Both the position numbers and the translations under genes were made by a program. From Clostridiales bacterium (GTDB taxonomy: Bacteria > Bacillota > Clostridia > Lachnospirales > Lachnospiraceae), in contig JAJQCD010000009.1 in NCBI GenBank assembly GCA_021202925.1, positions 1 through 64,000 of the forward strand: DNA of 64,000 bases, given 5' to 3'. Below, one piece after another: positions 1 through 58,710 of the stretch. A model generated the notes under the pieces. It did no database searches, was not told where the DNA came from, and was given only the letters and a program-made list of their open reading frames with translations. Every line of letters starts with the position of its first letter. Within the stretch, counting starts at the first letter, position 1.

Positions 1-1119
1 GGTTTCACTGTATCCCTGATCGGTCAATGCCTGATTGTATTCGTCCATGCTCTGTGTGGATATGCTCATCCACGAGCCAAAGACAAGGTCATCGACATCC
101 AGCGTTACCGTCCCGCTCTCCTGATCATACAATTCCGTATATTCCGTCCCATACCACTCTTCGTTTATATCGCCAGTCACATCGCCCCATGAGTAATCTC
201 TGGACACAGCCAATTTAATGGAAGTTATCGGATCGTCCTCATCCTGTACAACAGTGAATACAGCCTGTATCTCACCGGACCCATCCACACTTATTTGCAC
301 TTCTGATTTAAACAGATTATTCAAAATAGAAAGAGCTTCTGAGTGCCCTTCTTCTCTGCTCGTATAGCTTAAATTTCCTTTTACATAATTGCTCCAAAAA
401 AATCCCTTTATATAACTTCCTGCCTCCCATGAGAAACCTTCCGGTAGGCTGATCGCGCTTTCGACATCCAGGTTCATCAGGCTGGTTTGCTTTCGTCCAC
501 CCTGAGAATAATAATCACTCACATAAGTATTTATTAAAAAGGATTGCTCCGGGTTTTCCAGTTCAAAGGAAAGATATCCTACTCCCAACTCCTGGTCGCT
601 GTCCTTCTGGTAAATCTGAATCTGATCAGCAGAACGATAATACCCGTTAACTTCCTCGCTCAGATATCCATCCGCAAGATCCGTCTCCACATTTTCCTCA
701 TTACGAAAGGACTCCGGCATATCAAGCGTTCCCAAAGGAACCTGCGCCGGCTTCGTATATGTATTCTCAATCGCATCGATGCTCTCCGGCCCTGCCAGTT
801 GAATCATCTCATGATAGCCATAGGTGTGATACTGAATCGTAATAAGGTAACTATTTTCTCCTTGTTTTTCCACCAAGGCCCACGTGTTATTATTCCATCT
901 TGAACCAGAACTCGAACCATATTTGGAAATGTCTGAGTTCCACCGTGCATCTTCACGAAGACCATCTATATGCATCAGCCACGCAGTTCCTACATCCGAT
1001 GAAGCATAATCCGTTGTTGATTCCTCTGCTAAAACCGTACTTCCTGATATTAAAAAGTAAACCAGCAAAAAAATGGTTATTCCTGAAAACTTAATTATTT
1101 TCTTTACAGCATCAATCAT
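1..1119 (-). CDS. Large secreted protein, 3' end outside window
   Basis: An open frame of 373 codons runs from an ATG at 1119 (AAAGGA about 9 bases upstream) to the window edge without a stop. The N-terminus is a signal peptide: MIDAVKK, then a hydrophobic stretch, then a site after TVLAEE. The mature part is acidic, rich in Ser, Tyr and Asp, and looks beta-rich. I recognise no domain. It is probably the last visible gene of a minus-strand operon with the small secreted protein (1217-1669) and the sortase-like protein (1795-2853). That context suggests a surface protein of the heme/iron locus; this is inference only. A ligand-binding Ig-like fold is possible but not shown. Confidence 0.75.
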   Translation of the reverse strand, partial: MIDAVKKIIKFSGITIFLLVYFLISGSTVLAEESTTDYASSDVGTAWLMHIDGLREDARWNSDISKYGSSSGSRWNNNTWALVEKQGENSYLITIQYHTYGYHEMIQLAGPESIDAIENTYTKPAQVPLGTLDMPESFRNEENVETDLADGYLSEEVNGYYRSADQIQIYQKDSDQELGVGYLSFELENPEQSFLINTYVSDYYSQGGRKQTSLMNLDVESAISLPEGFSWEAGSYIKGFFWSNYVKGNLSYTSREEGHSEALSILNNLFKSEVQISVDGSGEIQAVFTVVQDEDDPITSIKLAVSRDYSWGDVTGDINEEWYGTEYTELYDQESGTVTLDVDDLVFGSWMSISTQSMDEYNQALTDQGYSET

Positions 1120-1216: not shown

Positions 1217-1669
1217 TTATGACTCAGGAATCTGGTTGATGTAAAGGACTCCATCTTGCGTTGTATGTTCACTCACTTCTCCATCTTCATCCGTCATCGT
1301 AATTGTAAAATCAACAGTAGTGTATTGAGAACTTGTCTCAAACACATAAGTAGAGCCATCGCTCAAACCCGTTTTGGCATCGTTTCCATCCGCCTGAATC
1401 GATGAAATATAGCCATCATATGTCTCACCAGTATAAGAGCTGGTATAACTCATCGACTGCAGATACAGTGTTACCTCATATTTCCCATCCCCTTTGTCTG
1501 TCAGGTCATAACTGGCAATGCAGTCATGTCCCATCGGAGCCGCCGTCAGTACCCCATTTTTGTAATAATAGAAATACGTCGACTGGGTGTAGGCAAACGC
1601 TGTGAGGGTCATCGCCATCATCATCACTGCTGCCAATACTACTGCTACTAAGTTCTTCGTGTTTTTCAT
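1217..1669 (-). CDS. Small secreted protein of the sortase-like locus
   Basis: A 150-residue protein with a clear Sec signal peptide (MKNTKNLVAVVLAAV..., cleavage likely after LTAFA). AAAGGAG lies well placed before the ATG. The mature part of about 125 residues has alternating strands typical of a small beta-sandwich, with GKYEVTLYLQSMSYTSSYTG and YDGYISSIQADG segments followed by a Thr-rich strand and an acidic end. There is no LPXTG, NPQTN-type sorting signal or C-terminal membrane segment, so it is released or held non-covalently. The pattern recalls NEAT/Shp-type ligand-binding domains. Placement beside a sortase B paralogue fits that, but I cannot assign the family. It lies between the dead sortase and the edge-truncated secreted gene, all on the minus strand. 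Confidence 0.8.
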   Translation of the reverse strand: MKNTKNLVAVVLAAVMMMAMTLTAFAYTQSTYFYYYKNGVLTAAPMGHDCIASYDLTDKGDGKYEVTLYLQSMSYTSSYTGETYDGYISSIQADGNDAKTGLSDGSTYVFETSSQYTTVDFTITMTDEDGEVSEHTTQDGVLYINQIPES

Positions 1670-1794: not shown

Positions 1795-2853
1795 TTACTG
1801 TATCCTCCGCGCCATGATCACCAGACTCTCCCCGTCCTCGCTGCCGTTCCAGCCAGCCAGCGTCAGAAAATCATCTCCGTATGACAGGTCGACGCCGGTG
1901 TCATAGAGCGCCGCCTCCTGCATCCGCCCGATCGCCAGGTTTGCAGCCTCTTCATCCGGCGAAATAAACTCAAAGGGAACGCTTCCAACGTCGTCTGCCC
2001 ATGCCACCGCCGCGATCTCATATGTCCGGCTCTCATACAGCGTATCGAAGCGGATCGTGCCGTACTTCTCCCAGAAGGACATCTCCTCATAGTTCTGCAG
2101 ATCCGAAAACGGGGAATCGCTTTCTCCGTCCTGACCATAGATAATCAGGTTGCCGCCATAAGCGCTGATATTGGACTCTCCATCCATATAGAGCAGTCCG
2201 TTTCCGCTCTCCTGTCTGTCAAATCCCCTGTCCCTGTAATACTCCGGATCGTCCGGCGTCCACATCACCGGGTCGTCGATCTGCGTACCGTCGATGATCA
2301 GCCAGCCGATCAGATCCTCATTCTGCGAATATAAATTTTCATAGGTATTCAGAACCTTGCGCTGCGTGACCTCCAGCGGGCTGTTCGTCTCCGCCGTAGC
2401 CTCCGCTTCCTCGCGGATCTGGCGCAGCTCGTCGATGCTGTCATCTCTCCGCCCACTCTTCCCGGAACAGGCGCCAAGGCACAAGACGCCGGCCACGCAC
2501 GCGGCGACACCCGCAGCGCGAAGCCAGACACGCGGACCTCTCGGCTGCGCGTGGCTGAAGCCAACGCCTGTGTTTCCGCTGCTTCTTCTGCTTTCTTTAC
2601 TCTGATTCATGCAGAAGCTGTTTTCATCGCTTTCTCTGCCCCGGCTCTGCCGGAAGCTGTTCTCAACGCTTCCTCTGTCCCTGCTCTGACAGGGTCTGCT
2701 TCCGCCGCTTCCTCTGTCAAGACTCTGCCAGGACCTGCTTCCGCCGCTTCCTCTGTCAAGACTCTGCCAGGACCTACTTCCGCCGCTTCCTCTGTCTTGG
2801 CTCTGCCGGAAGCTGTTTTCACTGTCCAATTCGCATCCCTCCTCTATTTGCAC
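1795..2853 (-). CDS. Sortase B paralogue lacking catalytic His and Cys
   Basis: The last 220 residues align closely with the intact SrtB at 14432-15235 (DLIGWLIIDGTQIDDPVMWT, GNLIIYG, YGDDFLTLA, VIMARR). The sortase catalytic His (YGHN in the intact copy) is Gln241, and the Cys (TLATC) is Trp335. Only the Arg of MARR remains, so transpeptidation is not expected. A hydrophobic segment ends in LCLGAC (Cys129), a lipobox, where the intact copy has a plain membrane anchor. Residues 17-81 are five 13-residue tandem repeats. The start is uncertain: GTG at 2853, a TTG at 2829 that has a GGAGG eight bases upstream, or Met82 at 2610, which would give a conventional lipoprotein. It may act as a binding or scaffold protein rather than an enzyme. 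Confidence 0.85.
   Translation of the reverse strand: MQIEEGCELDSENSFRQSQDRGSGGSRSWQSLDRGSGGSRSWQSLDRGSGGSRPCQSRDRGSVENSFRQSRGRESDENSFCMNQSKESRRSSGNTGVGFSHAQPRGPRVWLRAAGVAACVAGVLCLGACSGKSGRRDDSIDELRQIREEAEATAETNSPLEVTQRKVLNTYENLYSQNEDLIGWLIIDGTQIDDPVMWTPDDPEYYRDRGFDRQESGNGLLYMDGESNISAYGGNLIIYGQDGESDSPFSDLQNYEEMSFWEKYGTIRFDTLYESRTYEIAAVAWADDVGSVPFEFISPDEEAANLAIGRMQEAALYDTGVDLSYGDDFLTLAGWNGSEDGESLVIMARRIQ
2611..2805 (-). repeat. Five 39-bp tandem repeats coding 13-residue units
   Basis: Five in-frame units of 13 codons (QSLDRGSGGSRSW and variants; the last two are QSRDRGSVENSFR and QSRGRESDENSFC) make up residues 17-81 of the sortase-like protein. The middle units are almost identical in DNA, which suggests recent slippage. 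If translation starts at 2853 or 2829, they form a charged cytoplasmic Ser/Gly/Arg tail before the membrane segment. Confidence 0.85.
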
Positions 2854-3257
2854 CTTGATTTCCCTTTTCTGCCTTCTTCCACGTCTCTGCTTTCAGTTTT
2901 TCATTTTTGACGTGCGCCATCTTAAAACGCAATACTTACAGTTCATTCTCTTTCATCTTGTTCCGGCCTTGCTTCGGCGTTATGCCGGAACAGCTATTTT
3001 GTTATCAATGTACATCCTTTCTATCATGCCGGGATCGCGAAACTACCCGGCGGCAATCTGACTACAAGGTCTTCTATGTGTCCTCCGAACTTCCCGAACA
3101 ACGGTTACGACCGTTGGCTCTCCCGCAGGCCGCGCCGGTAGTTAGAGTCGGCTAACCGTTCGGCAAAAATGATAGCAAACGGAAGCTTCCGTTTACCATT
3201 ACCTGCTTGACCGCCGCCCTGCGGCCCGGTTGAATTGTGTCCTTTTTGTGACCTGAC
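2854..3257 (-). promoter_or_regulatory. Long structured 5' leader of the left sortase-like operon
   Basis: No gene is supported in these 400 bases. Read on the minus strand from the promoter at 3264-3292, the leader holds several hairpins: a perfect palindrome AAACGGAAGCTTCCGTTT at 3177-3194, GTTAG/CTAAC at 3141-3156, CAACGGT/ACCGTTG at 3101-3118, and GTTCCGGC/GCCGGAAC at 2960-2991. The first two have counterparts in the leader of the intact srtB operon (GTAAAC/GTTTAC near 15300-15330 and GTTAGC/GCTAAC at 15267-15282), so they are probably functional or at least inherited together. Confidence 0.5.
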
Positions 3258-3263
3258 AGCTTT

Positions 3264-3292
3264 ACCATATCGTCACAGTAGGCATTCGTCAA
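3264..3292 (-). promoter_or_regulatory. Promoter of the left sortase-like operon
   Basis: On the minus strand, TTGACG (3292-3287) and TATGGT (3269-3264) are separated by 17 bases. The srtB operon has TTGACG-17-TAATGT at the same distance from its upstream palindromes, which supports the call. Confidence 0.6.
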
Positions 3293-3313
3293 GAAATATT
3301 TTTTGAAAACCCA

Positions 3314-3420
3314 TTCACCCTGGGTTAAAATTTGGGCCTTTTTTTGCCTCCAAAAACGCTGAGAACCCTTATAAAACCTCACTTTTTGCCTTCTGAAAAA
3401 GTGGTGCAACCCTGGGTTAA
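3314..3420 (-). promoter_or_regulatory. Twin palindromic sites upstream of the left promoter
   Basis: Two near-palindromes, TTCACCCTGGGTTAA (3314-3328) and GCAACCCTGGGTTAA (3406-3420), lie 92 bp apart, with a shared ATAAAACCT-like stretch between them. They sit upstream of the -35 at about -64 and -156. The srtB promoter carries TTTACCCATGGTTAA twice, 93 bp apart, at the same positions. Binding from upstream of -35 suggests an activator, or a looping pair, since 92 bp is about nine helical turns. The protein is unknown. Confidence 0.65.
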
Positions 3421-3532: not shown

Positions 3533-3968
3533 TTACTTTAACATCGACAGGTACTTCGGATATTCCTCCTCCGGCACCTTCAGCGCCGCCAGCGCCTGTT
3601 CCGCCGTCCACGACATCGTCTCCATCAGAGCACGCAGATTCTCAAGCAGTTTCTCAGCTTTTCCCTCAGCTCTTCCTTCAGCTTTTCCCTGATTCAAAAT
3701 CCGGGTTGCCTCTGTCATAATTACCCTTCCGCCCATAACGTCTCTCACCTCTTCCTTCAGGCGGTCGTACTTCACCGCAAGATTCACCAGCACCTTTACG
3801 GACATTTCCTGCGTGATCTTTTTGGAATATTCCTCCATCACACCCTGCTGCACCAGTTCATCCAGGCGCTGTCCGATCGTTACATATTCTGCTTTCAATG
3901 ACGCAAGCATCTTATCATTCGTATTGTATTCCGGAAACTGCTTCTCATAACGGAAAGGATAAAAAAAG
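3533..3968 (-). pseudogene. 5'-truncated Rpn-type nuclease gene (C-terminal part only)
   Basis: From about RYEKQFPEYNTNDKMLASLK to the stop, this matches the last 145 residues of the complete gene at 5462-6454, including the shared end KVPEEEYPKYLSMLK. The catalytic N-terminal half is missing: at about 3968 homology stops and the end of the neighbouring Rpn gene (stop at 3972) takes over. An ATG at 4006 inside that neighbour could give a 157-residue product, but it has no nuclease core. An internal AEGRAEGKAEKL stretch expands a short repeat relative to the complete copy. The terminator at 3456-3490 follows. Confidence 0.8.
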
Positions 3969-3971
3969 CTT

Positions 3972-4937
3972 TTAAACGCCAAGCCAGTCATTGACCTCTT
4001 CCTCACTGTAATTCAAAAGATCGGCAATCTCAGACAAATTCCAACCCTTTTTATAAAGTTTGAAAGCAGTCTCTTTCGCTTTTCTGAGTTCTCCACGACT
4101 TTCACCCGTCTTGATTCCTCGTTCGATCCCTCGTTCTAAAATCCCCTGGCTCAAATTACACATTGTATTCAACTCCTCTCCAAATTCACTCTCTGCCGGT
4201 ATCCAATACTCATTTTCCAGAATATCAATTCGTTCCCTGGATGACAGTCCGGTTGAAAACAGCGCACTGAGCATCCGATGCAGCGCGTATTTCTCCCCTT
4301 GCTCCGGAAGACTGTTTGGCAGACCCAAAAGGACGATATTGGTCATATCCAGCTTGCCCTTCCAGGTATGGTTCGCCATAATCGCATCGTTGATCAGGTG
4401 AACATGATTCCAAATGCATTCATCCATGTTCATACAGATCCAGATCGAATAAACGCGACGCAGGTCGTTATAATTCTCTCCCCGGAAATCCCGTTCCTTC
4501 TGCGACGAGATCAGCCGACTGACATAAAAAATTGCTCTGTTCAGAATATCATACCCGCCGGGGTCATCCTTTTGTGCTTCGATATTGATTATGATCTTTG
4601 AGCATTCCTCTCCGATCTTTACATAGAAAACGATATCAAAGATCGCCGCGCCTTCAAATTCTTCCGAGTGTACCGTGTTCAGGACGACAATCCGATCCCC
4701 CTGAATCCTCCGCGCCTTGTTTGTAAGTCCCGGCTCCGCCGGTACGTTTCCCACATAAATCTTTCCGTCTATCAGATCTTCGATTTCCTCTGGCGGAATG
4801 CCTTTCAATTCATCCACAGTCGCCGCCAGGATATGGGAAAGCACACTCCTTCGGGCCAATATATCTTTCGCAATTGTGTCGTACTGGGTGCTTTCGTCGC
4901 CTAACGCGGCAAGCAAATTTTTCAAATCGGTATTCAC
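3972..4937 (-). CDS. Rpn-family PD-(D/E)XK nuclease / putative transposase, copy A
   Basis: A 321-residue member of the Rpn (recombination-promoting nuclease, PF12784-like) group. The nuclease core is visible as FDIVFYVKIG (Asp101) followed by INIEAQ (Glu120, Gln122), the usual E-x-Q form of the PD-(D/E)XK site. The C-terminus has its own helix-turn-helix-like end (GWNLSEIADLLNYSEEEV) after a charged RGIERGIKTGESRGELRKAKE stretch. Translation starts at GTG (4937) with GAGGTGG upstream; the paralogue at 6684-7634 uses the same start. The first 280 residues are nearly identical to that paralogue, but the tails differ. Such proteins are linked to RecA-independent recombination; the role here is unproven. 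Confidence 0.85.
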   Translation of the reverse strand: MNTDLKNLLAALGDESTQYDTIAKDILARRSVLSHILAATVDELKGIPPEEIEDLIDGKIYVGNVPAEPGLTNKARRIQGDRIVVLNTVHSEEFEGAAIFDIVFYVKIGEECSKIIINIEAQKDDPGGYDILNRAIFYVSRLISSQKERDFRGENYNDLRRVYSIWICMNMDECIWNHVHLINDAIMANHTWKGKLDMTNIVLLGLPNSLPEQGEKYALHRMLSALFSTGLSSRERIDILENEYWIPAESEFGEELNTMCNLSQGILERGIERGIKTGESRGELRKAKETAFKLYKKGWNLSEIADLLNYSEEEVNDWLGV

Positions 4938-5265
4938 GAAAACAATCCACCTCTTTCCTTTCTTTGGCAGGAAAGCAGCCCATCCTCTGTTAAAAGGATA
5001 CCATAATCACGACTGCTTATCAAGCCGGCAATTTTTCTTTACTACTTTACATTTTGGAAATTGCTATCGTTTGGTGTTTCGGCTTGTTATCAATTCGTGT
5101 TTTGGTTTACTATTATCTGGTGCTTTAATAAGAACGTATCTTTCGTAGAAAAAAACTGACTGGCAGAATTAACAGGATCATTGTAAGTCTTCTTTCCTGT
5201 ATTCTGATGATTTTCATTATCTTACAATAAATTACATATGCTGACAAGCTTTTTTTAATTTTACA
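4938..5265 (-). repeat. Upstream block of Rpn copy A, duplicated at 7635-7985
   Basis: No gene. This non-coding stretch (TTTCTTTGGCAGGAAAGCAG, a Thr/Gly-free AT-rich segment, then CATATGCTGACAAGC) is closely repeated upstream of the paralogue, so the duplication covers the gene and about 330 bases of 5' flank. It presumably holds the promoter; I cannot place the -10 and -35 with confidence. Confidence 0.75.
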
Positions 5266-5315
5266 TTCTTTGTATGCTATAAATCCCAACTACCTGCATA
5301 GCAGGTGGTTTTTTT

Positions 5316-5367
5316 GTTCTCCAAAGCTCCGTTTTTCGGAACAACGAAAAACGGAGCTTTGGAGAAC
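5316..5367. repeat. Perfect 23-bp inverted repeat, 6-base spacer
   Basis: The arms 5316-5338 and 5345-5367 are exact reverse complements (they begin GTTCTCCAAAGCTCC). Immediately left is a second hairpin, ACCTGC-ATA-GCAGGT, followed by a T run on the plus strand (about 5288-5317), which looks like a plus-strand terminator with no plus-strand gene before it. This unit lies between the terminator of the 5462 gene and the duplicated block and has no counterpart at 7985, so it is an insertion or a remnant. Confidence 0.85.
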
Positions 5368-5384
5368 AGGGCCATGCCCTAACA

Positions 5385-5419
5385 ACAAAAAGGGGAAGCT
5401 GCCGCAAAGCAACTTCCTC
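5385..5419 (-). terminator. Rho-independent terminator after the 5462 nuclease gene
   Basis: Same hairpin as at 3456-3490: GGAAGTTGC pairs with GGCAGCTTCC, followed on the minus strand by CCCTTTTTGTTG. It lies about 45 bases past the stop codon. Confidence 0.75.
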
Positions 5420-5461
5420 TTTCATTCCCACCTGTATTTCGTTTTTCATTTGCCGCCATGT

Positions 5462-6454
5462 TTACTTTAACATTGACAGGTACTTTGGATATTCCTCCTC
5501 CGGCACCTTCAACGCCGCCAGCGCCTGCTCTGCTGTCAACGACATCGTCTCCATCAGCGCACGCAGATTCTCAAGCAGTTTCTCGGCTTTTCCCTCAACT
5601 TTGCCCTGATTCAAAATCCGGGTTGCCTCTGTCATAATCACTTTTCCGCCCATAACGTCTCTCACCTCTTCCTTCAGGCGGTCATACTTCGCCGCGAGAT
5701 TCACCAGCACCTTTACAGACATTTCCTGCGTGATCTTCTTGAAATATTCTTCCATCACACCCTGCTGAACCAGTTCGTCCAGGCGCTGTCCGATCGTTAC
5801 ATATTCTGCTTTCAATGACGCAAGCATCTTATCATTCGTATTGTATTCCGGAAACTGCTTCTCATACCAGAAAAGATAAAACGGTAATAAGATATACAGC
5901 TTCTTCCCGAAGATCTCATCCAAAGAGTAGTCGCCGACCCGCACAACCCGGACGTCGATATCCAGCGTTCCTTTCGGCGCTGCGATCCGCATTGTCATCG
6001 AATCAATATCTGTCCCCGGCGGTCTCAGAAAGATCACTGCACAATGCGGAATTGTCACTTTCAGAATATGATCTTCAAGGACTCCCTCATCCAGCGCCGT
6101 CTGCGTCGCATACTCGAACATCCGGATCAGGATGCTGCTGTCCGCATTTGTCTGGCACTCGCACAGATACTTCTTCTCTTTGACTGAGGTTTTCTCTTTT
6201 GTCTTTTCATCCCTGGCAATCAGCCGGAACGATTCGTCCGTAATTCGCTTCTCCTCTCGCCCGCCCTCATGGTTCATGAAATGAGTCTCTTTTGTGAATA
6301 CGACGTCATTGTATTCGTCCAGATTCTCCTGAAAAATCTCACTCACGAGCGGAATCAACCACTTTCTGCAGTCATTCTCCATCGTGCGATGTACATCGTC
6401 ATAAGGCGTACTGCTCAGAAGTTCATCTTTTGTTGAAGGGCGTTCCTGTCCCAT
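5462..6454 (-). CDS. Rpn-type PD-(D/E)XK nuclease / putative transposase, second subtype
   Basis: About 330 residues. The ATG at 6454 has GGAGG upstream, with TTG 6460 as an alternative. The N-terminal half holds the nuclease core: KEKKYLCECQTNADSSILIRM carries the E-x-Q element, preceded by FRLIARDEKT. The middle matches IDVRVVRVGDYSLDEIFGKKLYILLPFYLF, a stretch typical of this clostridial subtype. The C-terminal helical part is duplicated in the truncated neighbour at 3533-3968. The last 34 residues (LRALMET... to EEEYPKYLSMLK) are shared with the gene at 6684. The sequence is clearly different from copies A and C outside that tail. Likely a mobile-element-type nuclease; biological role not shown. 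Confidence 0.85.
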   Translation of the reverse strand: MGQERPSTKDELLSSTPYDDVHRTMENDCRKWLIPLVSEIFQENLDEYNDVVFTKETHFMNHEGGREEKRITDESFRLIARDEKTKEKTSVKEKKYLCECQTNADSSILIRMFEYATQTALDEGVLEDHILKVTIPHCAVIFLRPPGTDIDSMTMRIAAPKGTLDIDVRVVRVGDYSLDEIFGKKLYILLPFYLFWYEKQFPEYNTNDKMLASLKAEYVTIGQRLDELVQQGVMEEYFKKITQEMSVKVLVNLAAKYDRLKEEVRDVMGGKVIMTEATRILNQGKVEGKAEKLLENLRALMETMSLTAEQALAALKVPEEEYPKYLSMLK

Positions 6455-6609
6455 CAACAAATAATCCTCCTCTGTGTAGTTTTGAATTACATCTTTATCT
6501 TAACCCAGAAACCACGGTCATGCAAGGTTTTTCTACAACCTTCCCTCAAAACTAATACATTTCTGTAACAAAGCATTATTTTCCAATAATAGCAAAACAC
6601 CGAAACGCG

Positions 6610-6640
6610 AAAAGGGAAGCTGCCGCGTAGCAACTTCCTC
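6610..6640 (-). terminator. Rho-independent terminator after Rpn copy C
   Basis: Minus-strand hairpin GGAAGTTGC-TACGC-GGCAGCTTCC followed by CTTTTCG. It is the same array-associated terminator, with a slightly different loop. Confidence 0.7.
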
Positions 6641-6683
6641 TTTCATTCTCACCAGTATTTCATTTTTTCATTTACCGCAATGT

Positions 6684-7634
6684 TTACTTCAGCATCGACA
6701 GGTACTTCGGATATTCCTCCTCCGGCACCTTCAGCGCCGCCAGCGCCTGCTCCGCGGACCATGCGGTCGTCTCCATCAGAGCGCGCAGATTCTCAACTTT
6801 ACCTTCAATGATTCCCTGTTCAATTCCTCGTTCTAAAATCCCCTGACTCAAATTACACATCATATTCAACTCCTCTCCAAATTCACTCTCTGCCGGTATC
6901 CAATACTCCTTTTCCAGAATATCAATTCGTTCCCTGGATGACAGTCCGGTTGAAAACAGCGCACTGAGCATCCGATGCAGCGCGTATTTCTCCCCTTGCT
7001 CCGGAAGACTGTTTGGCAGACCCAAAAGGACGATATTGGTCATATCCAGCTTGCCCTTCCAGGTATGGTTCGCCATAATCGCATCGTTGATCAGGTGAAC
7101 ATGATTCCAAATGCATTCATCCATGTTCATACAGATCCAGATCGAATAAACGCGACGCAGGTCGTTATAATTCTCTCCCCGGAAATCCCGTTCCTTCTGC
7201 GACGAGATCAGCCGACTGACATAAAAAATTGCTCTGTTCAGAATATCATACCCGCCGGGGTCATCCTTTTGTGCTTCGATATTGATTATGATCTTTGAGC
7301 ATTCCTCTCCGATCTTTACATAGAAAACGATATCAAAGATCGCCGCGCCTTCAAATTCTTCCGAGTGTACCGTGTTCAGGACGACAATCCGATTCCCCTG
7401 AATCCTCCGCGCCTTGTTTGTAAGTCCCGGCTCCGCCGCTACGTTTCCCACGTAAACCTTTCCGTCTATCAGTTCTTCGATTTTCTCTGGCGGAATGCCT
7501 TTCAATTCATCCACAGTCGCCGCCAGGATATGAGAGAGCACACTACTTCTGGCCAAAATATTTTTCGCAATTGTGTCATACTGGGTGCTTTCGTCGCCTA
7601 ACGCGGCAAGCAGGTTTTTCAAATCGGTATTCAC
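6684..7634 (-). CDS. Rpn-family nuclease, copy C with exchanged C-terminal tail
   Basis: A paralogue of the 3972-4937 gene: the first 280 residues differ at only a handful of positions and keep FDIVFYVKIG and NIEAQ. After RGIEQGIIEGKVE the sequence switches to LRALMETTAWSAEQALAALK and ends EEEYPKYLSMLK. That is the tail of the other Rpn subtype at 5462 and of the fragment at 3533. Translation most likely begins at GTG 7634 (FVNTDLKN; GGAGGTGG upstream), as in copy A; the longer frame to 7679 has no separate support. The chimera probably arose by recombination in the charged EGIxEGKxE linker. Confidence 0.85.
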   Translation of the reverse strand: MNTDLKNLLAALGDESTQYDTIAKNILARSSVLSHILAATVDELKGIPPEKIEELIDGKVYVGNVAAEPGLTNKARRIQGNRIVVLNTVHSEEFEGAAIFDIVFYVKIGEECSKIIINIEAQKDDPGGYDILNRAIFYVSRLISSQKERDFRGENYNDLRRVYSIWICMNMDECIWNHVHLINDAIMANHTWKGKLDMTNIVLLGLPNSLPEQGEKYALHRMLSALFSTGLSSRERIDILEKEYWIPAESEFGEELNMMCNLSQGILERGIEQGIIEGKVENLRALMETTAWSAEQALAALKVPEEEYPKYLSMLK

Positions 7635-7985
7635 GAAACCGTCCACCTCCTTCCTTTCTTTGGCAGGAAAGCAGCCCATCCTCTGTTAAAAGGATACCAT
7701 AATCACAGCTGCTTATCAAGCCGACAATTTTTCTTTACTACTCCACATTTTGGAAATTGCTATCGTTTCGTATTTCGGCTTGTTATCGTTTCGTGTTTTG
7801 GTTTACTATCATCTGGTACTTTGATAAGAATTTGATAAGAACGAATTTTTCGCAGAAAATATCGGACTAACAGAATTAACAGGATCATCGTAAGTCTTCT
7901 TTTCTGTATCCGACTTTTATATCCTGAGAATTTCTATTATTTTACAACAAGTTTCATATGCTGACAAGTTTTTTTATTCTACATC
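7635..7985 (-). repeat. Upstream block of Rpn copy C, duplicate of 4938-5265
   Basis: Non-coding flank nearly identical to the block upstream of copy A, ending at CATATGCTGACAAG just before the next array hairpin. A small direct duplication (TTTGATAAGAA twice) distinguishes this copy. No other gene is seen between 7635 and 8037. Confidence 0.75.
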
Positions 7986-8003
7986 ATCTGTAAGAAGGGA
8001 AGA

Positions 8004-8029
8004 GGAAGCTGCCGCAAAGCAACTTCCTC
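8004..8029 (-). terminator. Array hairpin downstream of the AAA-ATPase gene
   Basis: GAGGAAGTTGC...GGCAGCTTCCTC hairpin on the minus strand, followed by a C/T-rich tract rather than a clean U run. It is the same stem as at the Rpn genes, so probably a terminator, weaker than the others. Confidence 0.5.
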
Positions 8030-8037
8030 GATCATAA

Positions 8038-9723: not shown

Positions 9724-9811
9724 AACACTCACCTCCAAACAAACCGCAAAAACACATGATTTATGATAGCTCTAACTTACCATAACTCAACCCGGATATA
9801 CAAGGAAATAA

Positions 9812-9997: not shown

Positions 9998-10330
9998 TCA
10001 CAATCTCTCCAGAATTTCCTGCCCCACCTTTCGGGCAGCGTCCTCCCTGTAATACAACATATCGGTAACCGGCCGCCCTTTTCTGCTCCAGAATTCTTCC
10101 AGAAGTTTTCGATCCTCCGCGTCCAGTTCCGCGACCCGATAGCCGCCCATGACAAACCAGCTCGCGTCGGCCTTCCGCCCCATCGGCTCTTCGATGATCT
10201 TTAAAAATGCCGGGAGCGCCTGCTTCGCCAGGCCGACTCCGACAACGCCGATGGTGATCTTTGCCAGCTCTTCCTGCCGCGCCGCCAGATACGGTTTCAG
10301 TGTTTTTGCTGTGTCATACCGCAAGAACAT
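9998..10330 (-). CDS. Small uncharacterised protein at the end of the heme transport operon
   Basis: 110 residues starting at ATG 10330 (MFLRYDTAKTLKPYLAARQE) and overlapping the end of the ATPase gene by 17 bases, so it is translationally coupled. It is soluble, mixed alpha/beta: KITIGVVGVGLAKQALPAFLKIIEEP, WFVMGGYRVAELD, then a helical Arg/Glu-rich end. There is no signal peptide, no Cys pair and no nucleotide-binding loop. I do not recognise the family. The position in a heme-uptake operon invites a role in heme or porphyrin handling, but nothing in the sequence proves it. Confidence 0.7.
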   Translation of the reverse strand: MFLRYDTAKTLKPYLAARQEELAKITIGVVGVGLAKQALPAFLKIIEEPMGRKADASWFVMGGYRVAELDAEDRKLLEEFWSRKGRPVTDMLYYREDAARKVGQEILERL

Positions 10331-11108
10331 ACTTACGTCCATCGATCTGCGTAACCGGCAGTTCGATCCCATATAGAGTCCTGATCATCTCCGGAGTGAC
10401 GATCTCCTGAGGTTCGCCTTCCGCAATGATCCTGCCGTCCTTCATGCCGATCAGGACGTCTGCGTATGTCATCGCCTGATTGATGTCGTGCAGGATCATA
10501 ATAATCGTCATGCCATATTCTCGGTTGAGCTGTCGGACAAGCTTCATGATCCCAATCTGATAGCGAATATCCAGACTGTTGCACGGCTCATCGAGGAACA
10601 GGATATCGGTCATCATGGCAAGCGCCATGGCGATCCAGACGCGCTGACGCTGTCCGCCCGAGAGTTCTGACACCGGACGGTTGCGGTACGAATCAACATG
10701 AGTCACCTCCATCGCCCAGCGGATGGCCTCCTCGTCCTCCTTCGACCCGGCGGTCTGAAAGGCGTTCAGATACGGTGTCCGTCCATAGCCTACCAGCGTC
10801 TCCACCTTCCGGTCCGGAGGAGCGATGTTATTCTGATGAACGATCGCGACCTTTCTCGCGAATTCCTTTAAGCTGTATTCCTCCAGATCTTCGCCATAAA
10901 GGTTAACTCTGCCTTCGTCCGGATACAGATTTTTTGTCAGCAGTTTAAACAACGTACTCTTGCCGCAGCCGTTCGCGCCAAGCAGCACCGTGATCTTTCC
11001 CTTTAAAAATTTTACGTCCAGATGCTCCAGGACATTGACCTTCCCGTCATAGGAAAATGTCAGATCCCGCGCCTCCATCACATACTCCGCATTTTCTTTA
11101 TATTCCAT
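10314..11108 (-). CDS. ABC transporter ATP-binding protein, iron/heme type (FepC/FecE)
   Basis: About 264 residues. Walker A is LLGANGCGKSTL, the signature LSGGQRQRVWIA, Walker B ILFLDEP, the switch His in MILHDINQA. The order and length are those of iron-siderophore/heme/cobalamin importer ATPases. The ATG at 11108 has GGAGTG upstream and overlaps the permease stop by 11 bases. It would power the FecCD permease encoded just upstream, with the lipoprotein at 12220-13137 as substrate receptor. Heme is the likely cargo because the operon begins with srtB and a Shp-like heme-binding protein; cobalamin or siderophore remain possible. Confidence 0.95.
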   Translation of the reverse strand: MEYKENAEYVMEARDLTFSYDGKVNVLEHLDVKFLKGKITVLLGANGCGKSTLFKLLTKNLYPDEGRVNLYGEDLEEYSLKEFARKVAIVHQNNIAPPDRKVETLVGYGRTPYLNAFQTAGSKEDEEAIRWAMEVTHVDSYRNRPVSELSGGQRQRVWIAMALAMMTDILFLDEPCNSLDIRYQIGIMKLVRQLNREYGMTIIMILHDINQAMTYADVLIGMKDGRIIAEGEPQEIVTPEMIRTLYGIELPVTQIDGRKYVLAV

Positions 11109-12108
11109 ACGTCTTATCACTCCTCCGGATCAGAATAATCAGCATCGGTCCGCCCACGATGGACAGCAGGATCGAAGCCGAGATCTCATACGGCGCGGCG
11201 ATCGTCCGCCCCAGCGTATCGGCCAGCAGCAACAGAAACGCCCCGCCCAGCGCAGAAAACGGGATCAGCACTCTGTGATTCGAACCGACAAGGAGCCGCG
11301 CGACATGCGGCACGATCAGGCCGATAAAGGACACCACGCCCAGTTCTGCTGTGGAAATTGCCGCCAGCATCACCGCGATCAGGGAGACCCCGATCCGTGT
11401 ACCGGTCACATGCACTCCCAGACTCCTCGCGGTCTGATCGCTCAGGGAAAGGAGGTCGCACCGGTAACACATCATCCACGCCAGCACCAGTCCCAGCGCC
11501 ACATAACCGGAGATGATATACACGTCGTCCCAGGTTTTCTGTGAAATATTCGCATTCGCGATCGACGCCACCCCAGTCAGATTTCCACCGGTCATCGAGT
11601 TGAACGCCTGCGTCAGACCGGAAAACATCGCATTCACCGCAACGCCCACCAGAATCACCCGCAGCGGATTCAGCCCGTTCTTAAACGCCAGCAGATAGAC
11701 CAGGCCGCAGGCGGCCACGCCTCCGGCAAAGGCCAGCATCGGCGTAAAGAAATACAGCGACGGGAAAAGCCCCGCCACCAGAACCGCCGCAAAGCTCGAT
11801 CCGGAACTGACGCCGATAACGCCGGGATCCGCGATCGGATTCTTCATACAGGCCTGAAATAATACGCCGGACACCGACAGCGCCGCGCCGCCCAGCACCG
11901 CGATGATGATACGCGGAAAGCGCAGATCCCACACCGTCGCCACATCCGGATCATAAGCCACAAACAGCCCCTCATACAGCTGACTCATAGAGACCTTAAG
12001 ACTCCCTGTATTGATCGCCAGATCAATCATAATCAGGAGCAGCACGGCCACGCCGATGAGAGCCGGCGCTACCGGCTTCTTTTTCTCCTCTGTTAACTCT
12101 GTCCTCAT
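11098..12108 (-). CDS. ABC transporter permease, FecCD family
   Basis: A 336-residue polytopic membrane protein of the BtuC/FecCD type. It shows the family's LRFPRIIIAVLGGAALSVSGVLFQ..NPIADPGVIGVSSG segment, GLTQAFNSM, and the final FIGLIVPHVARLLVGSNHR loop that contacts the ATPase. One permease gene suggests a homodimeric channel. It sits between the substrate-binding lipoprotein and the ATPase in a tightly packed operon. The cargo is inferred to be heme from the adjoining Shp-like gene; the permease sequence alone does not define the substrate. Confidence 0.95.
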   Translation of the reverse strand: MRTELTEEKKKPVAPALIGVAVLLLIMIDLAINTGSLKVSMSQLYEGLFVAYDPDVATVWDLRFPRIIIAVLGGAALSVSGVLFQACMKNPIADPGVIGVSSGSSFAAVLVAGLFPSLYFFTPMLAFAGGVAACGLVYLLAFKNGLNPLRVILVGVAVNAMFSGLTQAFNSMTGGNLTGVASIANANISQKTWDDVYIISGYVALGLVLAWMMCYRCDLLSLSDQTARSLGVHVTGTRIGVSLIAVMLAAISTAELGVVSFIGLIVPHVARLLVGSNHRVLIPFSALGGAFLLLLADTLGRTIAAPYEISASILLSIVGGPMLIILIRRSDKTYGI

Positions 12109-12219: not shown

Positions 12220-13137
12220 TCACTCTCCATACAACATCGGCTGCAGAGTCTCAAGCGCCGCCGGAAACTGAAAGTTCGCACTCATCCCAAACTGATCGTA
12301 AGGCAGATCATACACGCATTCATCCTGCACCGCGCGGAAATGTCTCCAGATGTCATTTGTCTCAAACTCCTCGGCAAACATTGCCACTACATCCTCCGGC
12401 ATCGCGTGCGCCGCGCGCAGTATGATGTCCGGGTCGCGCGAGAGCATATCTTCGGTATTTGCCGTGATGAAATCCGCATCCGCGTCTTCATAAACGTTCG
12501 TTCCGCCCGCCAGCCGCACCAGACTGCCGACATAACTCCTGCCTGTCGCCACCACATAGGAGCCGGGAAGTCCCATAAGGATCAGCACTGTCGGACTGCC
12601 TTTATCCAAATTTTCCTTACTGTACTCATAATAAAACGCGGAAAATTCATCAATCAGTTCCTGCGCCTCTGTCTGGCGGCCGAAAAGTTCGCCCAGCTGG
12701 CGGATGCCTTTGTACATTCCTTCCACACTTTCCAGATTCAGGAAGAGTCCGTTCAGCCCCGCCGCCTCCAGTTTTGGCTGCATATCCGACATCAGCGACG
12801 CCGGCCCGATCACATAGTCCGGATTCAGCGTACGAATGATCTCCATATCCGGCCCCATCGCCGTGCCCACACGCGTCGCGCTGTCATAACGGGAGGGGAT
12901 CGTAGATAACGTCGAGTCCGGCACTCCCACCAGGTCGATGTCCAGACGCGCCATGATCTCAGTGGTCGCAGGGCTCGTCGCCACGATACGCAGGTCATCC
13001 GCGTCGCCCACCAGCACCGTCTCAGCCGACGCGCCGCTCTGATCCACACAGCCCGTCATGGACAGCAGGAGTACTCCGGCCAGCAGCATGGCAGCGGGCC
13101 GCAGGCCTCTTCTGTCTTTTCTTCCCCGTCTACTCAC
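12220..13137 (-). CDS. Heme/iron ABC transporter substrate-binding lipoprotein
   Basis: About 305 residues of the periplasmic-binding class III (TroA/BtuF-like) fold: RIVATSPATTEIMARLDIDLVGVPDS, EIIRTLNPDYVIGPASL, and a C-terminal LSRDPDIILRAAH segment. The lipobox is LSMTGC. The GTG at 13137 (GGGGGCG upstream, overlapping the stop of the Shp-like gene by 8 bases) fits better than the upstream ATG at 13233, which would add 32 charged residues before the signal peptide. It should deliver the ligand to the FecCD permease. Gene order (SrtB, Shp-like, receptor, permease, ATPase) resembles streptococcal Shp-Hts heme relay systems. Confidence 0.9.
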   Translation of the reverse strand: MSRRGRKDRRGLRPAAMLLAGVLLLSMTGCVDQSGASAETVLVGDADDLRIVATSPATTEIMARLDIDLVGVPDSTLSTIPSRYDSATRVGTAMGPDMEIIRTLNPDYVIGPASLMSDMQPKLEAAGLNGLFLNLESVEGMYKGIRQLGELFGRQTEAQELIDEFSAFYYEYSKENLDKGSPTVLILMGLPGSYVVATGRSYVGSLVRLAGGTNVYEDADADFITANTEDMLSRDPDIILRAAHAMPEDVVAMFAEEFETNDIWRHFRAVQDECVYDLPYDQFGMSANFQFPAALETLQPMLYGE

Positions 13138-14431
13138 CCTTTTCGCCCCCTGTCTGTTTCCGGCTTCCCGCTTCAAGTTCTGTTTCTCCGCTTCTCCTGC
13201 CCGGTTGCACTCCCACCGCCGCAAACCACACAAAGAGCAGGACGGCCGCTCCCAGCAGGACCATCATGACCAGTTTATTTCCGTTCAGCTCTCTCTTCTC
13301 ACCGCCTGTCTCCGGCGTCTCAGCCAGCTCCAGATCTCCGGCGATACCGGCGATCCCCGTCGCCGCCTCCAGCATCGGTTCGGTCAGCTTCCTTGCTTCT
13401 TTCATAGAAACCGCAGACAGATTATAAGCGGTTTCCAGATGGTAATCTGTCGGACTTGTCTCTTTGCTGTCCGATGCAGCCGCAACAGCCGCAGCGCCTG
13501 ACGGGACCACGGACGCCGTCTCTGCGCCGGATGTCGGGTATTTTCCCATATTCTCACTCTGCACGGTCGGCTTCACCGGGATCCCGGTCACCGGATCGTC
13601 TGCGCTGCCGCTTCCGTTGATCCAGTCATCAGCCACATCAGTCCCATTTTCTGAGACAGATTTTGCAAGTTCTTCCCACTTACTCGTCTGTTCCCCCATC
13701 CCGTCTGTCACCTCACCGGCATCCGCTTCCTCTGTCAGAACATATTGTGTGCCGGATGATATCTGTGTACCCGTCTGCGGATCTGCCGCCTGTGCCGCCA
13801 TATTTCCCTGTCCGGTTCCCGTCTGCATGTCCTGACTCACATCTGTTACCTCCGTCTGCGCGGCCGTCCCTGAGCTTACAACAAAATCGCCGCTGCCACT
13901 CCTTGCGTCAGACACGGTAAAGAAAAATACCACATTCCGTCCCATCGCCTCGATATACGCTTTGCCGCGGAATACGGAATCCATACTGCCGATCGGAATG
14001 CGGTAATCCGTATAGCCGTATTTCTCCTCGATATCGTTGGAACCTTCGTTCGCCGCCCTGGACTGCATCGCCTGATAACTCCGCGAGACATAATCTCCGC
14101 CGATCCGCTCCTCAAATGATACGTCACGGATAAACTGGCTCAGATAGTACCGCACCGTCAGATACATCTCCCCGGAGTTTTCTACCTCCAGAAGCCCGGT
14201 CGAACCACACATCCGCTCTGTCATCCCCTGACCGATCGCCGCGTTATTGCCGGGGTCGTCCACAGAACCCGTCTCCGGGTCTTTATAACTCGGCGCTACC
14301 GTCACCAGATACGCGCCCGCGTCCATCGCCCAGGCTGTGCCGATGTTCATACATGTCAGGACCGCCGCCGTAACCAGTACAGAAACTATCGCCGACAGCT
14401 TCTTCCCGATCCTTTTTCTTTCATCCTCCAT
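13130..14431 (-). CDS. Shp-like heme-binding surface protein, membrane-anchored
   Basis: 433 residues with a signal peptide (cleavage near TAWAMDAG) and a first domain of about 150 residues. That domain starts DAGAYLVTVAPSYKDPETGSV...GQGMTERMCGSTGLLEVENSGEMYLTVRYYLS and matches my recollection of the HemeBinding_Shp family (PF11545). A long Ser/Thr/Gln-rich linker follows. The C-terminus is a hydrophobic helix (NKLVMMVLLGAAVLLFVWFAAVG) with a short Arg/Lys tail, as in Shp. I see no clear NPQTN/NPKxN sortase B motif before it. Start at 14431, directly abutting the srtB stop. Likely takes heme at the surface and hands it to the lipoprotein receptor. Confidence 0.8.
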   Translation of the reverse strand: MEDERKRIGKKLSAIVSVLVTAAVLTCMNIGTAWAMDAGAYLVTVAPSYKDPETGSVDDPGNNAAIGQGMTERMCGSTGLLEVENSGEMYLTVRYYLSQFIRDVSFEERIGGDYVSRSYQAMQSRAANEGSNDIEEKYGYTDYRIPIGSMDSVFRGKAYIEAMGRNVVFFFTVSDARSGSGDFVVSSGTAAQTEVTDVSQDMQTGTGQGNMAAQAADPQTGTQISSGTQYVLTEEADAGEVTDGMGEQTSKWEELAKSVSENGTDVADDWINGSGSADDPVTGIPVKPTVQSENMGKYPTSGAETASVVPSGAAAVAAASDSKETSPTDYHLETAYNLSAVSMKEARKLTEPMLEAATGIAGIAGDLELAETPETGGEKRELNGNKLVMMVLLGAAVLLFVWFAAVGVQPGRRSGETELEAGSRKQTGGEKGE

Positions 14432-15235
14432 CTACCGGATCCTCCTCGCCATGATCACCAGCCGTCCGTCGTCTTCACTGTAATCACAGGTGGCAAGCGT
14501 CAGGATATCGTCTCCGTAAGTCATCTCAACCCCGGTATCGTAAAGCGCCATCTCCTGCATCCGCCCGATCGCCAGATTGGCCGTCTCCTCATCCGGAGAG
14601 ACAAAATCAAAGGGGAACTCCTCGACGTCACTGCCCTTTGCCACCGCCGCGATCTGATAGATGCGGCTCTCGTATAAGGTATCAAAGCGGATCGTATTGT
14701 TTTCCTGCCAGAAAGACTCCTTCTCGTACTTCAGCAGATCCGCAAACATGGAGCCGTTTTTCATATTGTGTCCATAGATGATCAGGTTGCCTCCATAAGA
14801 ATTGATATTAGACGCGCCGTCCAGGAAAAGCAGGCCGTTCTGACTTTCCTGTTTATCAAATCCCTTATCGCTGTAATATTCCGGATCTTCCGGCGTCCAC
14901 ATCACCGGATAATCAATCTGTGTCCCGTCGATCATCAGCCAGCCGATGAGGTCCGGATTCTGCAGAAACAGATCCCGGTAGGTATTCAGGATCTCCCGCG
15001 ACGAGACGTCCAGCGGACTGGCGGTCTCCTCCGCGGTCTCCGCCTCCTGCCGGATCTGCCGCAGTGCATCCATGCTGTCTTCCTCCTGCTTTCCGCGCAT
15101 AAAATACGCTCCCAGACACGCCACACAGACCACGCACACGCCCATACATGCCAGACGAATCCTCTTTTTATACTTTCCCTGCTTCCAGTTCTTCTGAAAT
15201 TTACTCCAGTTACTCAAGTTACCTTCCTCCTCCAT
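14432..15235 (-). CDS. srtB: Class B sortase
   Basis: 267 residues with an N-terminal membrane anchor (residues 27-46) and a complete SrtB catalytic domain: His156 in IYGHNM, Cys250 in LTLATCDYS, Arg in VIMARRIR. Class B sortases attach heme-uptake proteins with NPQTN-like signals to peptidoglycan. It is the first gene of the heme operon and is followed without a gap by the Shp-like gene. An internal TTG at 15217 has GGAGG eight bases upstream and could be the true start. The paralogue at 1795 has an equivalent GGAGG/TTG pair. Regulated presumably through the promoter at 15371-15399 and its twin upstream sites. Confidence 0.95.
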   Translation of the reverse strand: MEEEGNLSNWSKFQKNWKQGKYKKRIRLACMGVCVVCVACLGAYFMRGKQEEDSMDALRQIRQEAETAEETASPLDVSSREILNTYRDLFLQNPDLIGWLMIDGTQIDYPVMWTPEDPEYYSDKGFDKQESQNGLLFLDGASNINSYGGNLIIYGHNMKNGSMFADLLKYEKESFWQENNTIRFDTLYESRIYQIAAVAKGSDVEEFPFDFVSPDEETANLAIGRMQEMALYDTGVEMTYGDDILTLATCDYSEDDGRLVIMARRIR

Positions 15236-15266: not shown

Positions 15267-15330
15267 GTTAGCGATAGCTAACTCACGGGCAAAAAATATA
15301 GTAAACTTAACATTTCGTTTACCATGTGCC
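15267..15330 (-). promoter_or_regulatory. Hairpins in the srtB leader
   Basis: GTTAGC-GATA-GCTAAC (15267-15282) and a GTAAAC/GTTTAC pair (about 15300-15325) lie between the promoter and srtB. Similar paired hairpins occur in the leader of the left operon at 3141-3156 and 3177-3194. Their role is not known. Confidence 0.45.
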
Positions 15331-15370: not shown

Positions 15371-15399
15371 ACATTAACGCTACCAAAAATATTCGTCAA
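15371..15399 (-). promoter_or_regulatory. Promoter of the srtB heme operon
   Basis: Minus-strand TTGACG (15399-15394) and TAATGT (15376-15371) with 17-base spacing. The -35 and its flank (TTGACGAAT) are the same as at 3292. Confidence 0.6.
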
Positions 15400-15421: not shown

Positions 15422-15529
15422 TTTACCCATGGTTAAAAAATACGTCTTTCCTTCCCCGTCCAAAACAGTAGAATCCCTTTTAAAACCTGGTTTTTCTGAC
15501 GTCCTGAGATATCCTTTACCCATGGTTAA
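15422..15529 (-). promoter_or_regulatory. Twin palindromic sites upstream of the srtB promoter
   Basis: TTTACCCATGGTTAA occurs exactly twice, at 15422-15436 and 15515-15529, starts 93 bp apart, with a TTTTAAAACCT stretch between. They are centred about 65 and 158 bases upstream of the expected transcription start. The same layout at 3314-3420 controls the left sortase-like operon. No other gene is seen from 15236 to 15651. Confidence 0.7.
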
Positions 15530-15651: not shown

Positions 15652-16537
15652 TCAGAAGAACGCAGCATTCGTTCTCTGGATTTTCACACACATCATCGCC
15701 GAAGCCCTTGGCATATGTTGTTCCCCGGCCGTACAGGAAAACGACACTTCCAGTTCTCCGACCAGGCTGCTGTCATTCCCCTCCCAAATCTTCCATATCA
15801 TATCCTTCATCGGAATTCTCACAATGTCGTCCTGAATCTTCGGTTTCCTCGTCCGGGTTCCCACTTCGTATTCCAGACTCTTCATCTGCCCCCGCACATC
15901 GTAATCCTCCGTCATGGAATGATGAAGAATCATCTGCCTCTGCAGCCGGAGCTCGCTCCTGCCCGCTTCAATCACCATCATCCTTGTCTGACCAAACGCA
16001 CTTTCTGCCATGGAAGGCTCGTTGCCGTCCAGCTTACGAAATGTGACGTAAACCGAATAGCGGCCCTCCGGCAGCATATTAGCAAATTCCACGTTTCGGA
16101 ATTCCAGACAGCCATCCCTCTCCGATGAACTGATTCTGCGGTTTCCACGAAGCAGACAGATGATTCCCTGATTCATCATCATATCCAGAACCGGAACCGG
16201 CGCTCTCGCCAGAAGATCCCGCGTAACGTTCCGGGCATCCGTCTCCGATATTCCCATTGTCTGATACCAGACATGGATCCCTTTTTCCCATAACCGGCAC
16301 CACATATAAAATTCCGCCCCCAGAGACGTCATCTCATATCGTTCCGTCAGATACCCCCCGCTGTACGATGGCCTTCATTCGCTTCGTAACTGCTGCGGTC
16401 GAGACCTCCAGCTTGTGTCCCAGCATGGTGAGCGTCCGTCCACTCGCACTCATGGCCGCCCACGTCTCAAAATAAAGCAGTTCTGTTTCGGTCATCCGCT
16501 GTCTGCCGTCTGTCACCATATCCCTGCCAGTGATCAT
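15652..16537 (-). pseudogene. DtxR-like regulator gene, frameshifted in a C6 tract
   Basis: Two frames form one gene. The first (ATG 16537) encodes a winged-helix N-terminus: TETELLYFETWAAMSASGRT, LEVSTAAVTKRMKAIVQRG. The second continues exactly where DtxR/MntR proteins have GYLT: removing one base of the C6 run at 16354-16359 restores RGYLTERYEMTSLGAEFYMW. The rest (WEKGIHVWYQTMGISETDARNVTRDLL) fits the second helical domain. It is followed by about 150 residues of beta-rich sequence I do not recognise. The ATG overlaps the DUF1292 stop by 4 bases. It may be a true pseudogene, a slippage-switched gene or a sequencing error. Position next to the twin sites makes it a candidate regulator of the heme loci. 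Confidence 0.75.
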
Positions 16538-31440: not shown

Positions 31441-31460
31441 TAAAGGTAACCCGAGGTAAA

Positions 31461-58515: not shown

Positions 58516-58552
58516 GAATAAGTCTACCTCCTGTAATAATTTGCAGACTGCA

Positions 58553-58588
58553 GAAAAAAGGTCTCTCCATCCGCAGACGGAGAGACCC
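58553..58588 (-). terminator. Attenuator-like hairpin in the L10 leader
   Basis: GGTCTCTCC (58561-58569) pairs with GGAGAGACC (58580-58588), followed on the minus strand by TTTTTTCTGC. It lies between the rplJ promoter (58682-58710) and rplJ, as expected for an L10 leader with attenuation. Confidence 0.8.
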
Positions 58589-58675
58589 TACAAACTCTTC
58601 ATAAGATTGTATGTTCCTCGGCAGGCGGTGATAACCTTACGCCTTACGGCGCCTGCTGTCTTCGACAGTCAATAC
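58589..58675 (-). ncRNA. L10 leader RNA, upstream part
   Basis: The stretch between the rplJ promoter and the attenuator contains GGCGCCGTAAGGCGTAAGG and CCGCCTGCC-type pairing, with ATGTTCCTCGG. This matches the position and general make-up of the L10-L12 binding leader in Firmicutes; the exact fold was not computed. Confidence 0.5.
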
Positions 58676-58681
58676 TTGTGT

Positions 58682-58710
58682 ATGATAACATACTATATCT
58701 GGATTGTCAA
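58682..58710 (-). promoter_or_regulatory. rplJ-rplL promoter
   Basis: Minus-strand TTGACA (58710-58705) and TATCAT (58687-58682), 17-base spacing. Confidence 0.7.

Follow-up and report, generated by a model that had tools for sequence, protein, structure and literature searches.

What binds the paired palindromes that precede two sortase loci of a Clostridiales bacterium (Lachnospiraceae), and to what effect? The sites lie in a 64,000-nt stretch (positions 1 to 64,000, forward strand, of contig JAJQCD010000009.1, assembly GCA_021202925.1), here called the window; the first pair, with its promoter, occupies positions 3264 to 3420. Each pair is likely to be the operator of a one-component regulator in which a DtxR-type DNA-binding module is fused to a NEAT domain, and which would act as a heme-loaded activator of heme import, overlaid by an iron repressor. 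The anatomy of the sites, the folds of the regulator, the recurrence of the twin sites, their near-fixed placement and the covariation of operator and recognition helix are all supported by the comparisons below.

The genes served by both pairs lie on the minus strand. The palindromes and promoters were read from the sequence and aligned with relatives, and the boxes were placed by alignment:

3406..3420, minus strand: locus 1 distal operator-like palindrome
3314..3328, minus strand: locus 1 proximal operator-like palindrome
3264..3292, minus strand: locus 1 promoter, TTGACG-N17-TATGGT
3141..3156, minus strand: locus 1 GTTAG-N6-CTAAC box, a putative DtxR-like iron box
15515..15529, minus strand: locus 2 distal operator-like palindrome
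15422..15436, minus strand: locus 2 proximal operator-like palindrome
15371..15399, minus strand: locus 2 promoter, TTGACG-N17-TAATGT
15267..15282, minus strand: locus 2 GTTAG-N6-CTAAC box, a putative DtxR-like iron box

The palindromes at 3314, 3406, 15422 and 15515 are present as described in the original prediction, with start-to-start spacings of 92 bp (locus 1) and 93 bp (locus 2), and the promoters were found at 3292-3264 and 15399-15371, starting 21 and 22 bp away from the proximal sites as it had stated. The GTTAG-N6-CTAAC box, a third conserved palindrome downstream of both promoters, had been overlooked. The palindrome core conserved across relatives is AACC-N3-GGTT. Allowing two mismatches, TTWACCCNNGGTTAA has 12 matches in the window (1.47 expected; 12 was reached in none of 100 shuffles), ten of which are the four known sites, read on both strands or in two registers, and the other two a single site at 31446. 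In the 3.17-Mb genome TTNACCCNNGGTTAA with at most one mismatch has eight matches, comprising four rows at the two loci (three distinct sites; that at 3406 needs two mismatches) and four single sites elsewhere. Since a reversed-pattern control gave six matches, these single sites are at background level, and the palindrome occurs almost only at the two loci rather than frequently genome-wide. A strict twin pattern matched, among 24 genomes of the genus, only locus 2 and its counterpart in genome G018; it is too narrow for counting, since it misses locus 1 and the variants of L077 and L081 (L-numbers label loci or regions in this analysis).

The two loci do not bear independent witness. Their upstream regions had been taken as otherwise diverged DNA, which is wrong: they align along their full length, with 56.5% identity over 324 columns and a global alignment score of 148.5, compared with 43.5 at most in 200 mononucleotide shuffles. 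They are paralogous copies from an old duplication, so that the shared 92/93-bp spacing is not independent evidence. A very recent duplication was rejected, locus 1 being equally far from locus 2 and from the related locus L076 (56.5% and 57.6% DNA identity, 64.0% and 63.6% protein identity); the sortases of L076 and locus 2 share 92% identity. The duplication thus probably predates the split between L076 and locus 2, unless locus 1 evolved fast. It is unlikely that locus 1 is simply a decaying relic whose twins no longer work. Its sortase has lost the His and Cys positions that we take to be catalytic (YGHN has become YGQD, and TLATCDY has become TLAGWNG) and each operator has one diverged arm, but both operator cores, the -35 element and the iron box are retained at that overall identity, as is the spacing, and the genes that come next belong to the heme cluster.

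Adjoining the locus 2 twins on their upstream side is a gene whose product joins a DtxR/MntR-like winged helix to a C-terminal NEAT domain. In the window it is present as two pieces:

15652..16332, minus strand: dimerisation helices and NEAT piece of the regulator, directly upstream of the locus 2 operon
16334..16537, minus strand: winged-helix piece of the regulator, whose frame differs from that of the NEAT piece

The frame (15652-16537) is broken near a run of G, and the copy in L076 is intact. The break may be real, may reflect phase variation, or may be an assembly error. The dedicated regulator that had been proposed is well supported by the position of this gene and by the recurrence of its homologues together with twins; the reasoning that led to it started from two loci that are paralogous copies, and was in part mistaken.

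The regulator contains both the DtxR-type winged helix with its dimerisation fold and the NEAT beta-sandwich. Against PDB sequences the regulator profile gives a close match, in sequence and fold, to heme-bound NEAT structures; the profile was needed for this, as a single regulator sequence found nothing in the same set at 0.01. The Ser-Met signature of NEAT domains is conserved in 30 of 34 members. At the column of the MntR metal ligand His77, the one ligand column compared, His is found in 2 of 34 regulators.

A regulator that binds the twins could use its NEAT domain to sense a signal other than heme, such as another tetrapyrrole, a redox change via CxxC or a protein partner, though we regard this as doubtful. 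Between residues 250 and 278, where the tyrosine ligand presumably lies, no column reaches 70% Tyr in an alignment of 28 sequences (seven rows were left out, namely those of the window piece, L219 and L221 as incomplete and those of L222-L225 for their diverged signature); conserved there are C258, G261, H264, M265 and P266 (L077 numbering). With the usual NEAT tyrosine not conserved, heme binding may differ or be absent. The CxxC motif is present in seven of the eight regulators of alignment A2 (the second Cys is lost in L076), and was not seen in most others. Set against a non-heme signal are the match to heme-bound NEAT structures, the Ser-Met signature and the heme-gene neighbourhoods of many of the loci.

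The regulator profile was run against 397 genomes of the window's family, the named relatives being mostly Lachnospiraceae. It matches 41 of them at 1e-8, the 12 weakest mostly through the winged-helix part only (in frames of 131-254 aa). Matches of 1.4e-13 or better come from 28 genomes, 16 of which are among the 26 that carry the heme-binding surface protein Shp (p = 9e-15, uncorrected for phylogeny). In a phylum-wide set of 398 genomes, five match at 1e-12, the window's genome included. Heme-uptake genes or pairs of ABC half-transporters lie downstream of the regulator in many loci but not all; those of L211 and L218, for example, lead into genes that are neither. Regulator homologues adjoin heme-transport loci in many related genomes, which is the kind of association suggested originally as a check. 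The half-transporter pairs (~550-605 aa) follow the regulator in L200, L201, L202, L210, L213, L215, L216, L217 and L220, where they replace the Shp operon or sit near it.

Twin sites recur in front of these genes. The analysis covers 36 regions downstream of regulators (L197, the same locus as L080, and L205, which stops inside the regulator, were dropped beforehand; the L219 stretch starts inside the gene). The pattern GTxGC-N6 to N8-GCxAC, with at most one mismatch in ten, gives 40 sites compared with a mean of 4.4 in 50 shuffles (maximum 10). At least two sites of this common type are present in 18 regions, compared with 0.3 in shuffles (maximum 2), and in 17 once L198 is discounted; since the motif was derived from the same regions, the shuffles test recurrence and not discovery. 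One pair in L198 (238.5 bp apart) and one in L224 (192.5 bp) were dropped, the second site of each lying inside the next gene. Among relatives the commonest type is GTTGC-N6/7-GCAAC, while the window's clade has AACC-N3-GGTT, with such pairs 91-93 bp apart in the window, L076, L077 and L081. L210 has TGTTCC-N6-GGAACA twice, 65 bp apart, and L078 a repeated, hardly palindromic element of ~22 bp at a distance of 111 bp, which is not significant in a motif-free test (23 of 100 shuffles reach it). In all, 23 of the 36 regions have twins; looser or other pairs seen by eye in L207, L212, L223 and L225 are left out of the counts. The motif-free test is dominated by A/T runs. Only for window region win2, L076, L082 and L216 did none of 100 shuffles score as high (one did for L210, two for L223 and three for L079), and the best pairs that it finds in L210, L220 and others are not the twins.

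Twins of the common type are spaced by 44-103.5 bp in 17 loci, with no evident helical phase. The looping at fixed spacing that had been proposed finds no support in this range, 91-93 bp being seen only within the clade of the window, nor does phased looping. Cooperative binding to the twins is plausible by analogy with MntR of the DtxR family. Scanned for the GTxGC type only, none of five Shp loci from regulator-free genomes (12-15 kb each) has a common-type pair. The Shp operon of L226, with its regulator on another contig, has one upstream (81 bp apart). The Shp locus L227 was likewise scanned for the GTxGC type only, and its genome has a GTTCC-type regulator elsewhere. Outside the window's family, where five loci were inspected, a pair precedes the next gene in L243 and L244.

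The placement of the proximal site speaks for activation. Taking transcription to start 6 bp after the -10 of predicted promoters, 13 loci have the site centred between -52.5 and -55.5, three (L079, L080 and L082) have it at -59 or -60, and five (L076, L077, L081, L201 and, by hand, the window) at -65 or -66; L223 (pair 256 bp apart) and the automatic promoter of win2 (-79; by hand -65) were dropped. Using the -10 and extended -10 alone, 12 of 17 loci have the site within the same 4 bp, which none of 1000 shuffles reached (mean 4.5, maximum 9). The distance from the -10 box is therefore near-fixed, as expected of an activator. Among the group of 13 (-52.5 to -55.5), 11 have a -35 that matches at most 4/6 positions and nine have an extended -10. 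Activators usually serve weak promoters that lie at a fixed distance from their site, and this is the chief reason for choosing activation.

The same regulator might act with the opposite sign, the heme-free protein repressing through cooperative binding or a small loop and heme releasing it, as for HrtR or PefR. Several known heme regulators act by derepression, according to passages in reviews, and good -35 boxes (5-6/6) are present in the window's clade (the window by hand), L079, L080, L082 and L201, so that an activator is not demanded there. Repression is nevertheless rather improbable, since the sites lie upstream of the -35 and not over the promoter, at a near-fixed distance, most of the 13 promoters are weak, and the twin spacing is not phased.

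The operators also vary with the protein. Over 20 loci (L078, L216, L223, L225 and the window were left out) operator similarity tracks that of the recognition helix when the rest of the protein is allowed for (partial r = 0.44, permutation p = 0.0008). The recognition helix has Lys in all three AACC loci and Arg in all 17 others (p = 0.0009). VHRSTV helices (L080 and L083) go with GTCGC and VNRSTV helices (L079, L082 and L201) with GTTGC; L225 has one GTCGC-like site and a helix other than VHRSTV. All of these should be read as correlations among related sequences. It is very improbable that the twins belong to a different protein, for example the DtxR-type partner whose gene neighbours that of some regulators (genes with a DtxR dimerisation domain in L206 and L201, related open frames upstream in L080, L082 and L083), because the window, L076, L077, L078 and L081 have twins and no such partner beside the regulator, the operators covary with the helix of the NEAT protein, and a separate DtxR-like box is already present. 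A plain hairpin or terminator was set aside, since the twin sequence changes along with the regulator.

The partner genes lie directly upstream of the NEAT regulator, at 4490-5670 in L206, 7928-9599 in L201, 4888-6635 in L080, 7801-9602 in L082 and 4718-7221 in L083, an arrangement that suggests two-regulator cassettes.

The box between promoter and gene recurs too. Exact TTAG-N6-CTAA is found in 22 of the 36 regions compared with 0.3 in shuffles, and upstream of Shp in two of the five loci from regulator-free genomes (L228 and L231). We take it to resemble the DtxR operator. True DtxR proteins exist; the gene for one immediately precedes the regulator in L206, and another is encoded in the window's genome. 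The box would provide iron control separate from the twins. At gathering thresholds Rfam has a single RNA element in the window, far from both loci, which is the ribosomal protein L10 leader at 58546-58683 (minus strand).

From these data we infer DNA binding, heme binding and activation by the regulator, iron control, and a splitting of the heme cluster in the window. Intracellular heme is the most likely ligand of the NEAT domain, whose sensing would replace the metal sensing of MntR. Heme-loaded dimers would occupy both sites; the proximal site, centred at about -53 to -66, would help RNA polymerase and the distal site would raise occupancy. The iron box between promoter and start codon would add iron control, such that low iron together with heme would switch the operon on. 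A broader claim, held a little less firmly, is that these proteins form a family of cytosolic NEAT-domain transcription factors, in which a surface heme fold joined to a DtxR-like module makes a direct heme sensor activating import from twin sites, with helix and operators co-evolving.

Several observations weigh against this reading, in addition to the missing tyrosine column and the good -35 boxes already described. In the window the reading frame of the regulator is broken, its NEAT piece has no Pfam match at 1e-3, and no second full copy was found in the genome at 1e-5. Only the L077 protein passes the Pfam cut-off for NEAT, other members matching more weakly or not at all. A clear pair was not found in 13 of the 36 regions, nor twins in front of the next gene in L245, L246 and L247. 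The change to AACC operators with Arg to Lys is probably a single evolutionary event, and L211 and L218 have the Lys but no twin.

The closest known relative of the DNA-binding part is MntR of Bacillus subtilis, a DtxR-family protein with the same winged helix and dimerisation helices. According to PMC11275975, MntR activates mneP and mneS by cooperative binding to several 18-bp upstream sites, and Escherichia coli mntP is preceded by two separated MntR sites. Activation from several sites upstream has this precedent among DtxR-type proteins. MntR has no NEAT domain and senses Mn, and the mneP sites are 1 bp apart (PMC11275975) whereas the twins here are 44-104 bp apart; the His77 equivalent is kept in few of the regulators, as noted above.

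The NEAT part shares its fold and Ser-Met-Ala helix region with the Isd and Hbp2 domains. In the passages drawn on from the NEAT and heme-regulator literature (PMC7815599, PMC4143258, PMC11442138 and PMC12670364) those proteins are surface-displayed or secreted, and one review passage names a tyrosine ligand. The NEAT domain here is joined to a DNA-binding domain, is presumably cytosolic, and lacks the conserved tyrosine that is usual at the end of such domains. HrtR, FhtR, HatR, PefR, HsmR, HssRS, ChrSA and HrrSA probably do the same job of coupling heme to heme-handling genes, but belong to other families (TetR, MarR, two-component), and several control efflux, detoxification or storage; the review passages describe no NEAT domain in any of them. 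Word searches found no 'helix-turn-helix', 'HTH' or 'regulator' in the main text of a 2014 survey of NEAT evolution, and no 'DNA-binding', 'transcription' or 'cytoplasm' in a 2021 NEAT review. No NEAT-domain transcription factor was found in full-text searches of an open-access library; the parts are known, and their combination is apparently undescribed there. If the proposal is true, a NEAT domain that serves as the sensor of a DNA-binding protein would be a heme sensor of a new class and would account for the way in which many relatives could couple heme import to heme itself. With operators, helix variants and target operons identified the idea is directly testable, and the natural helix-operator pairs are available for studying changes of DtxR-type specificity.

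The locus 2 genes run from 15529 down to 10314, in the order twins, promoter, GTTAG-N6-CTAAC box and then:

14432..15235, minus strand: sortase B (PF04203, 6e-14; class B sortase at 147.6 bits, slightly below the NCBIfam cut-off)
13130..14431, minus strand: Shp-type heme-binding surface protein (PF11545, 5e-39)
12220..13233, minus strand: substrate-binding protein (PF01497, 2e-36)
11098..12108, minus strand: FecCD permease (PF01032, 8e-83)
10314..11120, minus strand: ABC ATPase (PF00005, 5e-31)

Locus 1, from 3420 down to 1, has twins, promoter and GTTAG-type box followed by:

1795..2853, minus strand: sortase B paralogue (NCBIfam class B sortase at 81.5 bits, cut-off 153.75)
1217..1669, minus strand: small protein of 150 aa, with relatives downstream of the ATPase gene in other heme clusters
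1..1119, minus strand: beginning of a giant surface-type protein, truncated where the contig ends (profile match 4e-50)

The locus 1 sortase matches no Pfam family at 1e-3; it is 64% identical to the locus 2 sortase and has a long low-complexity N-terminal extension. The small proteins (1217-1669, minus strand, in the window, 15236-15712 in L077, and others) form a family with signal-like starts adjoining heme clusters, and the two members scanned gave no confident Pfam or NCBIfam match. In seven of eight relatives they are followed by long surface-type open frames, after the ATPase gene of the same cluster; the eighth is L076, where the contig ends too early. In the window other genes (3533-9738) separate the two halves. 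An insertion would thus have split the heme cluster, leaving locus 1, an old duplicate of twins, promoter and sortase (the last now decayed), upstream of two stranded genes, those for the small protein and the giant surface protein.

On contig C5 of the window's genome, L240 (1310-8449) is an open frame of 2380 aa that matches the regulator profile, presumably via NEAT repeats, and may continue the cluster cut at the window start. The block at 3533-9738 (minus strand) consists of five repeated-looking genes, and the one tested has AAA and PD-(D/E)XK nuclease domains. A similar gene seems to be present on contig C4 (L242, 1086-2753).
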